Of a stretch of 11,009 bases of DNA, positions 1 to 11,009 are shown piece by piece; positions within the stretch are counted from its first letter, which is position 1; every line of letters begins with the position of its first letter. This stretch comes from Trueperella pyogenes (GTDB taxonomy: Bacteria > Actinomycetota > Actinomycetes > Actinomycetales > Actinomycetaceae), in NCBI RefSeq assembly GCF_900460345.1, contig NZ_UHHW01000004.1, positions 1-11,009 of the forward strand, in the 5' to 3' direction. The position numbers and the translations under genes were made by a program. The notes beneath the pieces were generated by a model. It worked only from the letters and a program-made list of their open reading frames with translations. It was not told the DNA's origin and did no database searches.

Positions 1-1
1 G

Positions 2-356
2 CAGTACGTGGGCCAGACGCACTACGACGTCGCCACCCGCGTCAAGGCGATCCTGCAGAAGAACAAGGAGCTTCAGGACATCATCTCGATCCTTGGCGTG
101 GATGAGCTTTCCGAAGAGGACAAGATCACCGTTGCACGCGCACGCCGTATCGAGCAGTACCTCTCGCAAAACACGTACACGGCTGTGAAGTTCACGGGTG
201 TGGAGGGCTCGACAGTGCCGATCGACGAAACCGTAGAAGCCCTTCCGCCGCATCACCGAGGGCGAGTACGACCACATCCCAGAGCAGGCTTTCTTCAACA
301 TCGGCGGCATCGAGGACATCGAGCGCGCCTGGGCCAAGATTCAGGCTGAATCATGA
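2..356 (+). CDS. atpD: ATP synthase F1 subunit beta, C-terminal part (left copy, frameshifted)
   Basis: This is the 3' end of the catalytic beta subunit of F1 ATP synthase, cut by the window edge. The frame reads [15 protein letters not shown], then the DELSEED torque motif inside [10 protein letters not shown], then [13 protein letters not shown], all typical of the beta C-terminal helical domain. An extra C at 240-242 (GAAGCCC, against GAAGCC in the right arm) throws the frame off after ETVEA. The right copy continues with a normal tail ending AWAKIQAES. The correct stop, TGA at 354-356, overlaps the atpC start in ATGA, so the two genes are translationally coupled. The frameshift is most likely a sequencing error, because the rest of the gene is under normal coding constraint. 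Confidence 0.93.
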
Positions 357-646
357 GACTAGAGATCGTTGCACGAACGGGAGTCCTCTACACTGGGGAG
401 GTCTCCGAGCTCGTGGTGCCCGCCTACAATGGCGAGATGGGGATCCTGGCGGGCCATGCGCCCGTCATGGCCGTCATCTATAAGGGCACGATCCGCATTG
501 TGGAAAACGGCGAGAGGAAGTCTGTCCAAGTGGGCAACGGCTTCATGACTGTCGATCAGGATGACGTCACAGTGGTGGTGGAGGACTATAACGACACCGA
601 AGCCAACTCGCGAATGATTGACGAACTCGCGGCTGAAGAGGACTAA
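353..646 (+). CDS. atpC: ATP synthase F1 subunit epsilon, short form (left copy)
   Basis: Encodes 97 aa, identical in both arms. Epsilon sits on the central stalk with gamma and, in longer forms, can inhibit ATP hydrolysis. The N-terminal beta-sandwich domain is complete: [20 protein letters not shown] (about residues 22-41) is the family signature, followed by a beta-rich stretch and [19 protein letters not shown]. After about residue 85 only a short acidic tail remains ([12 protein letters not shown]). The C-terminal helix-turn-helix domain found in many bacterial epsilon subunits of 120-140 aa is therefore essentially absent. The start overlaps the atpD stop by 4 bp and has no strong ribosome binding site, consistent with coupling. 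DUF2550 follows after 2 bp. Confidence 0.95.
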
Positions 647-648
647 CA

Positions 649-1048
649 ATGAGCGCGGGCGACATTCTTGGAATTGTGGGATTCTTGACGATCATCGCCC
701 TCGCCTTTGTCTTTGTCTACCTTTTCCGCATCAGATATCTCCTCAACCACGAGGGATCCATCCAAGTATCCGTGCGTGCATGGACGGTAGGTGGCACAAC
801 AATATCGCGATCCTCGGTCCAGAATCGCTCGACCTGTATCCACGCATTCCTTTTCCTGGATCCCAGTGATGCAGTGGGATCGCCTGGATATGAGCTTCGA
901 GATTCAGCGGCCGCGCGGAGGCATCCGTGTGGTGACTATCATCGTCGCAGACGGTAGCTGGCGATTAGCTGCCGGCTCGGATGAAATGAGCGCCCTGCTA
1001 TCCTGGATGGACTCCGCGCGCCCATCGGCCGAGCCGACGATGGCGTAG
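649..1048 (+). CDS. DUF2550 membrane protein (left copy, two frameshifts)
   Basis: Left copy of the small membrane protein between atpC and nucS. It starts at ATG 649, two bases after the atpC stop, with GAGGAC upstream as a weak ribosome binding site. The frame is lost twice: a G is missing at 778-779 (GTGCGTGCATGG, against GTGCGTGGCATGG) and a C at 840-841 (TATCCACG, against TATCCCACG). The right copy at 9935-10336 is an uninterrupted 133 aa, so these are very likely read errors. The order atpC-DUF2550-nucS is conserved in actinobacteria such as Corynebacterium (from memory). The family function is unknown. Confidence 0.85.
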
Positions 1049-1088
1049 GTGCTCTGTTAGGCTGGTTGTTTCCGGCGAAAGGAACCTT

Positions 1089-1783
1089 GTGCGTATCGTC
1101 ATTGCGACATGCTCTGTTGACTATTCAGGGCGTCTCGACGCTCATCTTGAACCCGCTAAACGCGTTCTCATGCTCAAGTCAGACGGCTCGGTGCTCGTCC
1201 ACGCAGACGGGGGCTCGTATAAGCCGTTGAACTGGATGTCCCCGCCGTGCTCGATGCGTGTGGAAGAACCGGAGCAAGCTGAGGCTGAGCTGGGCATTGT
1301 CGAGAATTGGCGAGTTGAGCACGCCAAGATGGACGACGCGCTCATTATCCACATCCACGATATCCACGAAGATATCAGCACCGACCTGGGTATTGAGCCT
1401 GGCCTCCTCAAAGACGGCGTGGAGGCTCATCTGCAGCGCTTGCTCGCCGAGCAAACCGAAATCCTGGGGGCAGGCACGCGACTGGTGCGCCGCGAATACC
1501 CAACCGCCATCGGCCCGGTGGATCTCTTGGTCACCGATTCGGAAGGCCGGCACATCGCTGTCGAGGTCAAACGGCGCGGGGAGTGGACGGCGTCGAGCAG
1601 CTTACGCGCTACCTCAGCCTGTTGGAGAGGGATTCCACCTTGCGCCCGATCCGGGGCATCTTCGCCGCCCAAGAGATCAAACCGCAGGCTCGGGTGCTGG
1701 CAGAAGACCGCGGTATCGAATGCATAGTGCTCGACTACGACGCGATGCGTGGCGTGGATCGGCCGGAGGATCGGCTGTTCTGA
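1089..1783 (+). CDS. nucS: Mismatch endonuclease NucS/EndoMS (left copy, one frameshift)
   Basis: NucS (EndoMS) cleaves both strands at mismatches and underlies the non-canonical mismatch repair of actinobacteria and archaea that lack MutS/MutL. The start is GTG 1089, with GAAAGGA at 1076-1082. The N-terminal domain carries the family hallmark KPLNWMSPP (about 45-53). The C-terminal nuclease domain shows the restriction-endonuclease-like triad: D145 in GPVDLL, then E159 and K161 in VEVKRRGG, followed by DGVEQLTRY with Q171. One G is missing from the run at 1578-1581, so the frame breaks right after VEVKRRG. Restoring it from the right arm (five G) gives 231 aa, normal for the family, ending DRLF. 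This copy is correct at every position where the right copy is damaged. Confidence 0.93.
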
Positions 1784-9200: not shown

Positions 9201-9894
9201 CAGAACAGCCGATCCTCCGGCCGATCCACGCCACGCATCGCGTCGTAGTCGAGCACTATGCATTCGATACCGCGGTCTTCTGCCAGCACCCGAGCCTGCG
9301 GTTTGATCTCTTGGGCGGCGAAGATGCCCCGGATCGGGCGCAAGGTGGAATCCCTCTCCAACAGGCTGAGGTAGCGCGTAAGCTGCTCGACGCCGTCCAC
9401 TCCCCCGCGCCGTTTGACCTCGACAGCGATGTGCCGGCCTTCCGAATCGGTGACCAAGAGATCCACCGGGCCGATGGCGGTTGGGTATTCGCGGCGCACC
9501 AGTCGCGTGCCTGCCCCAGGATTTCGGTTGCTCGGCGAGCAAGCGCTGCAGATGAGCCTCCACGCCGTCTTTGAGGAGGCCAGGCTCAATACCCAGGTCG
9601 GTGCTGATATCTTCGTGGATATCGTGGATGTGGATAATGAGCGCGTCGTCCATCTTGGCGTGCTCAACTCGCCAATTCTCGACAATGCCCAGCTCAGCCT
9701 CAGCTTGCTCCGGTTCTTCCACACGCATCGAGCACGGCGGGGGACATCCAGTTCAACGGCTTATACGAGCCCCCGTCTGGCGTGGACGAGCACCGAGCCG
9801 TCTGACTTGAGCATGAGAACGCGTTAGCGGGTTCAAGATGAGCGTCGAGACGCCCTGAATAGTCAACAGAGCATGTCGCAATGACGATACGCAC
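9200..9894 (-). CDS. nucS: Mismatch endonuclease NucS/EndoMS (right copy, five indels)
   Basis: Right copy of nucS. It starts at GTG 9894 and ends at 9200. Five single-base changes scramble the N-terminal two thirds: lost A then extra C (9824-9825 and 9778-9780), which restore frame at [13 protein letters not shown]; an extra C at 9739-9743 just after WMSP; then lost A and lost G at 9528-9529 and 9514-9517. The final third is in frame from TRLVRREYP to the end and supplies the correct junction [14 protein letters not shown], which the left arm lacks. All three catalytic residues (D145, E159, K161 in consensus numbering) are present. With both arms combined the gene is normal, so neither copy should be called a pseudogene. 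Confidence 0.88.
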
Positions 9895-9934
9895 AAGGTT
9901 CCTTTCGCCGGAAACAACCAGCCTAACAGAGCAC

Positions 9935-10336
9935 CTACGCCATCGTCGGCTCGGCCGATGGGCGCGCGGAGTCCATCCAGGATAGCAGGGCGCTCATTTC
10001 ATCCGAGCCGGCAGCTAATCGCCAGCTACCGTCTGCGACGATGATAGTCACCACACGGATGCCTCCGCGCGGCCGCTGAATCTCGAAGCTCATATCCAGG
10101 CGATCCCACTGCATCACTGGGATCCAGGAAAAGGAATGCGTGGGATACAGGTCGAGCGATTCTGGACCGAGGATCGCGATATTGTTGTGCCACCTACCGT
10201 CCATGCCACGCACGGATACTTGGATGGATCCCTCGTGGTTGAGGAGATATCTGATGCGGAAAAGGTAGACAAAGACAAAGGCGAGGGCGATGATCGTCAA
10301 GAATCCCACAATTCCAAGAATGTCGCCCGCGCTCAT
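9935..10336 (-). CDS. DUF2550 membrane protein (right copy, intact)
   Basis: Encodes 133 aa. A single N-terminal transmembrane helix (about 6-26, [20 protein letters not shown]) is followed by basic FRIRYLL and a cytoplasmic domain with [19 protein letters not shown] (48-65), [18 protein letters not shown] (68-85) and a beta-rich [20 protein letters not shown]. Recognised as DUF2550 from sequence features and from its place between atpC and nucS. The role is unknown, and nothing suggests it is an ATP synthase subunit. It starts 2 bp after the atpC stop, so it is likely the last gene of the atp transcript. nucS begins about 40 bp further on with its own ribosome binding site. Confidence 0.88.
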   Translation of the reverse strand: MSAGDILGIVGFLTIIALAFVFVYLFRIRYLLNHEGSIQVSVRGMDGRWHNNIAILGPESLDLYPTHSFSWIPVMQWDRLDMSFEIQRPRGGIRVVTIIVADGSWRLAAGSDEMSALLSWMDSARPSAEPTMA

Positions 10337-10338
10337 TG

Positions 10339-10632
10339 TTAGTCCTCTTCAGCCGCGAGTTCGTCAATCATTCGCGAGTTGGCTTCGGTGTCGTTATAGT
10401 CCTCCACCACCACTGTGACGTCATCCTGATCGACAGTCATGAAGCCGTTGCCCACTTGGACAGACTTCCTCTCGCCGTTTTCCACAATGCGGATCGTGCC
10501 CTTATAGATGACGGCCATGACGGGCGCATGGCCCGCCAGGATCCCCATCTCGCCATTGTAGGCGGGCACCACGAGCTCGGAGACCTCCCCAGTGTAGAGG
10601 ACTCCCGTTCGTGCAACGATCTCTAGTCTCAT
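10339..10632 (-). CDS. atpC: ATP synthase F1 subunit epsilon, short form (right copy)
   Basis: Same 97-aa product as the left copy, with no difference. The N-terminal domain signature [11 protein letters not shown] is at residues 27-37, and the protein ends at ELAAEED with no room for the usual pair of C-terminal helices. Its start overlaps the atpD stop by 4 bp. Because the two arms agree exactly, the short C-terminus is not a frameshift artefact. Confidence 0.95.
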
Positions 10633-11009
10633 GATTCAGCCTGAATCTTGGCCCAGGCGCGCTCGATGTCCTCGATGCCGCCGATGTTGAAGAAAGCCTG
10701 CTCTGGGATGTGGTCGTACTCGCCCTCGGTGATGCGGCGGAAGGCTTCTACGGTTTCGTCGATCGGCACTGTCGAGCCCTCCACACCCGTGAACTTCACA
10801 GCCGTGTACGTGTTTTGCGAGAGGTACTGCTCGATACGGCGTGCGCGTGCAACGGTGATCTTGTCCTCTTCGGAAAGCTCATCCACGCCAAGGATCGAGA
10901 TGATGTCCTGAAGCTCCTTGTTCTTCTGCAGGATCGCCTTGACGCGGGTGGCGACGTCGTAGTGCGTCTGGCCCACGTACTGCGGGTCGAGAATGCGCGA
11001 CGTCGACGC
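10629..11009 (-). CDS. atpD: ATP synthase F1 subunit beta, C-terminal part (right copy, partial)
   Basis: The last 126 codons of beta; the 5' end lies beyond the window. It reads [13 protein letters not shown], then [20 protein letters not shown] with the DELSEED motif that contacts the gamma subunit, then [14 protein letters not shown], and ends [11 protein letters not shown]. This is the undamaged version: GAAGCCTTCCGC encodes EAFR where the left arm has an extra C. The bases 10984-11009 have no partner in the window. The catalytic P-loop and the rest of the nucleotide-binding domain lie outside. Confidence 0.96.

Follow-up and report, generated by a model that had tools for sequence, protein, structure and literature searches.

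Results

Gene content and symmetry of the window

The window analysed here is an entire contig (C4, 11,009 b) of a source assembly that consists of 5 contigs with a total of 2,310,711 b. It carries the 3' part of atpD, atpC, a DUF2550 gene, nucS, an alpha/beta hydrolase gene, a DivIVA-like gene and two frames without Pfam family, and these genes are found in two arms of opposite orientation, which are separated by a noisy axis (Table 1). In the inverted-repeat listing of the window, 14 of 16 inverted pairs are collinear and 100% complementary, extending from 1/10983 to 5152/5827, with paired-coordinate sums of 10979 to 10985; the two pairs I15 and I16 (47 nt, 72%) lie off the collinear line. 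The palindrome spans the contig completely and no unique DNA flanks it, i.e. the contig stops at the arm ends except for a right overhang of 26 nt (positions 10700-11009 correspond to C2 1564452-1564761 at 100%). The giant inverted palindrome claimed in the preliminary description, including the range of its coordinate sums, is therefore borne out, and self-complementarity over more than 5 kb by chance is out of the question. Alignment of the two arms to each other revealed 15 differences outside the axis, all of them one-base length changes and none a substitution, which agrees with the earlier count; a 3-base gap at 5150-5152 was assigned to the axis and is excluded from this number.

Table 1 Features of the window. 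Positions refer to the window; C2 denotes the 2,269,745 b contig of the same assembly.
Feature	Positions	Strand	Remarks
Left arm	1..5149	+	Reverse strand of C2, descending from 1564735; reverse complement of right arm
Axis	5150..5829	.	Noisy reading of the C2 locus with many deletions, before and after the turn
Right arm	5830..11009	-	C2 plus strand up to 1564761
Right-arm overhang	10984..11009	.	26 nt, carries on the C2 sequence; left arm ends at C2 1564735
atpD 3' part, left arm	1..355	+	Frame-shifted
atpD 3' part, right arm	10629..11009	-	Frame open; Pfam PF22919
nucS, left arm	1089..1783	+	One indel
nucS, right arm	9200..9894	-	Five indels; NucS_C still detected in one frame
DivIVA-like gene, left arm	3205..4277	-	One indel
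DivIVA-like gene, right arm	6703..7778	+	Two indels

A single intact copy of the locus on C2

A search of the assembly with one arm identified three places, namely the two arms of C4 and one place on C2, and both halves of C4 map to this single C2 locus on opposite strands. There is no inverted second copy at the chromosomal locus, since C2 contains a single match and the aligned region C2 1550000-1567000 is unbroken through the locus. Compared to C2, the left arm contains 6 one-base indels (before window position 5140) and the right arm 9 (beyond 5835), both without any substitution, and at each of the 15 sites only one arm deviates from C2.

All genes are whole on C2: atpD (487 aa), atpC (97 aa), DUF2550 (133 aa), nucS (231 aa, with NucS_N and NucS_C), the alpha/beta hydrolase (258 aa) and the DivIVA-like gene (357 aa, with PF05103), which together represent the 6 of 8 frames with a Pfam family, the other two being the frames of 121 and 351 aa. 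Within C4, damage to atpD and DUF2550 is confined to the left arm, and damage to the 121-aa frame and to the hydrolase, where it lies close to the 3' end, is confined to the right arm. The 351-aa frame is disrupted both in the left arm and, once more, within the axis; atpC is intact in both arms. The earlier statement that essential genes are disrupted in one arm only thus holds for atpD but not for nucS, which differs from C2 once in the left and five times in the right arm; the DivIVA-like gene is likewise disrupted in both arms (1 left, 2 right).

A search of the genome collection with the hydrolase yielded 7 loci, four of them from Trueperella (77-81% identity), one from Arcanobacterium (63%) and two from further MAGs (57% and 44%). 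These matches place the source of the window in Trueperella or near it. Within the genus, the hydrolase is present in all nine genomes searched, the source included; the other eight contain one strong match each (E ≤ 1.3e-103), and any further matches are weak (E ≥ 5.9e-10). The arm DNA has a single match in seven of these eight genomes and none in the eighth.

The axis of the palindrome

Most of the axis is a badly read copy of the same locus, rich in deletions. Positions 5160-5225 match C2 1559502-1559572 on the minus strand (93%), whereas 5373-5424 and 5494-5820 match C2 1559049-1559097 (87%; score 69, shuffle maximum 39.8 in 100 shuffles) and C2 1559213-1559570 (88%), respectively, on the plus strand. 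Separate DNA at the axis, such as a mobile element or an RNA, was rejected on the basis of these matches, which cover most of it. In addition, the plasmid collection, searched in distant mode, contained no match to positions 5150-5830, and the phage collection, searched solely in near mode, contained none to the window; both searches may omit records of the source genome or of near ones. No Rfam family was found at the gathering threshold.

The left limb can be followed clearly as far as about 5258 (C2 1559449), and because 5373-5424 already runs back, the turn should be located near C2 1559050-1559080 or below; a hairpin model with cheaper gaps peaked at C2 1559076. For the same reason, i.e. 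the return direction of 5373-5424, a first estimate of the turn (window 5439, C2 1559127) was dropped. Most of about 400 bases of the left limb may have been either lost or skipped, which would correspond to base loss or to a single-copy loop. The following values were obtained with the superseded turn. Of the 277 differences that the hairpin model left within 700 nt of it, 248 were deletions, 13 substitutions and 16 insertions. The right axis scored 565, whereas the highest control scores were 60 (shuffles) and 47 (other pieces of C2); the left axis scored 42 compared to -4 and 10, and the inner left axis (5300-5439) scored 13 compared to 6 and 10, which is barely over the controls. Each set of controls numbered 200.

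About 114 nt (5259-5372) had no consistent placement on C2. The segment 5226-5372 fits best in return orientation at C2 1559496-1559664 (86.8, shuffle maximum 74.6 in 100 shuffles), as opposed to 72.8 in the expected orientation (shuffle maximum 73.0). This placement breaks the order that one fold would give and counts against a simple single fold. If a single fold is nevertheless assumed, the turn of C4 lies within 5259-5372, compared to the mid-point at 5505 of 11009, and is thus near-central, i.e. within the 10% criterion of PMC12870357.

The other small contigs

The remaining small contigs, C1 (7,786 b), C3 (10,338 b) and C5 (11,833 b), are also palindromes over nearly their full length with central axes. 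They represent C2 1719419-1723329 (C1), 161052-166243 (C3, which additionally matches C2 elsewhere twice, over 27 and 30 nt) and 1129195-1135308 (C5), and in each of them both halves map to one place on C2 on opposite strands. Consequently, all four small contigs are palindromes of a distinct C2 locus, and their outer arm ends are only 71 (C1), 19 (C3), 26 (C4) and 377 nt (C5) apart on C2. In C1, C3 and C5, several of the ungapped pairs fall short of 100% complementarity, so that the zero-substitution result holds for C4 only. Within 700 nt of the turn, deletions account for 202 of the 212 axis differences of C3 from its hairpin model; the corresponding axis counts are 51 of 84 in C5 and 10 of 37, i.e. 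a minority, in C1.

The noise of C3 (about 4290-6038) reaches approximately 700 nt before and 450 nt after the turn, and that of C1 and C5 approximately 50-150 nt.

Discussion

The window is very probably an assembly artefact, namely a long-read fold-back consisting of a template and its complement that was kept as a contig of its own, and contains no biological feature. One or a few chromosomal molecules would have been sequenced by long reads, first along one strand and then directly along its complement, resulting in a self-complementary read that the assembler would have failed to merge with the chromosome and retained as a separate small contig. The platform was presumably nanopore, and the strands could have been joined either during library preparation or only at base calling. 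Polishing with chromosomal reads would have corrected the arms, and the axis would have stayed close to the quality of raw reads. Reading of a template and then of its complement predicts shared end points, a central turn, the lack of unique flanks, an intact locus elsewhere and unrelated loci, all of which were observed. In particular, the near-coincident outer ends in four of four contigs are not explained by a single rearrangement, but they are explained by fold-back long reads. The preliminary description had already interpreted the window as a fold-back chimera, and this interpretation is supported by the single whole-gene copy on C2, decisively by the three further palindromic contigs, and by an axis that derives mostly from the same locus. 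On the other hand, the fact that deletions do not dominate in C5 and are a minority in C1 argues against a fold-back origin.

Known artefacts provide further points of comparison. In the foldback reads described by Heinz, Meyerson and Li (2026, PMC12870357), as in C4, the latter half of the sequence aligns back to the position of the first in opposite orientation, the turn is located near the middle and a break finds no support in the rest of the sequence from the locus, which in the case of C4 is that on C2. These authors give a foldback share of about 0.55-0.6% for genomic nanopore reads and favour an origin in library preparation. However, their foldbacks are reads found by alignment, whereas the present ones are finished contigs, four from four loci, and the eight reads inspected there revealed no notable signal change around the breakpoints, in contrast to the noisy turn of C4, which is a point against the fold-back reading. 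A loss of accuracy with missed and miscalled bases at inverted junctions, similar to that in C4, is reported in a study on inverted duplicates in nanopores (Spealman, Burrell, Gresham 2020, PMC7229812), and this suits the deletion-rich axes of C3 and C4. The duplications described there are real (yeast, human) and the poor quality follows the junction over a long stretch, close in length to the preceding sequence, whereas here both sides of the turn are affected over only hundreds of bases. This latter pattern counts against the fold-back reading, polishing being the sole explanation at hand.

We also considered PacBio sequencing with a missed or missing SMRTbell adapter, where the polymerase passes round the molecule end and continues on the other strand without the turn being cut. 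Such a read would produce a symmetric palindrome equally well, and an unamplified PacBio control contained 0.5% palindromic reads, which the Pacasus report (PMC6218980) partly ascribes to missed or missing adapters. Nevertheless, we regard this origin as improbable. In 16 adapter-by-contig tests, no score rose above the best one from 60 shuffles, the adapter (presumed sequence) thus not standing out at any of the four axes within 450 nt of the assumed mid-points, although a missing adapter would leave no trace. Moreover, virtually no foldbacks occur in the PacBio HiFi data of PMC12870357, and the axes of C3 and C4 are dominated by deletions.

A chimera generated during whole-genome amplification, in which the polymerase switches to the copied strand and returns along it so that an inverted molecule is sequenced, was the second of the two mechanisms initially offered and appears quite improbable. 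Artificial inverted repeats of this type are known from long reads, where they disturb assemblies, as they would here, and in PMC6218980 at least one palindrome was present in 43.6-47.8% of the reads from two amplified sets of Arabidopsis; a possible loop of about 400 nt in the C4 axis would also fit this mechanism. Yet amplification does not require arm ends that are only 19-377 nt apart on C2 in four of four contigs, and because of this spacing the other mechanism offered, reading of the template plus its complement, fits better and is preferred. Amplified reads can contain several turns according to PMC6218980, whereas each contig here has a single turn with near-coincident outer ends. Copying alone would furthermore not result in a noisy axis, although noise could arise if such a molecule were read by nanopore, and the fact that the assembly has only 5 contigs, one of them of 2.27 Mb, suggests unamplified DNA.

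Palindromic amplicons occur in biology, which speaks for a real inverted duplication or palindromic element in the cell. Still, this possibility is hardly credible, given four separate C2 loci whose palindromes lack unique flanks and have nearly coincident outer ends, a locus that is single on C2, and genes disrupted by one-base indels with zero substitutions. A chromosomal hairpin at the turns was also rejected, which adds to the case against a duplication: stems of 6, 6, 8 and 5 at the estimated turns, that of C4 having since been revised, fall inside the range of 4-8 in 120 random pieces. It is similarly far-fetched that the four small contigs correspond to real DNA molecules of about 4-6 kb that are hairpin-closed at one end, e.g. 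excised or packaged chromosomal fragments sealed at one terminus, even though a read running round such a hairpin would be the same as that of the fold-back artefact.

The preliminary description was correct in recognising the artefact, the value of which lies in a warning about assembly quality, its biological interest being low. False second copies and broken housekeeping genes (atpD, nucS, DivIVA-like) enter an assembly whose completeness and contamination scores are 99.99 and 0.68, respectively, and since 40,966 of its 2,310,711 bases belong to the four small contigs, any tally of duplicated genes or pseudogenes based on this genome would be off. A check of small contigs for self-complementarity would detect such artefacts. 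The small contigs contribute no locus beyond those on C2, because all of them are palindromes of C2 loci. The repeat I21 of C5 (1374-1431 and 10022-10079) seems, as judged by eye from a motif, to encode a 1-deoxyxylulose-5-phosphate synthase-like peptide.
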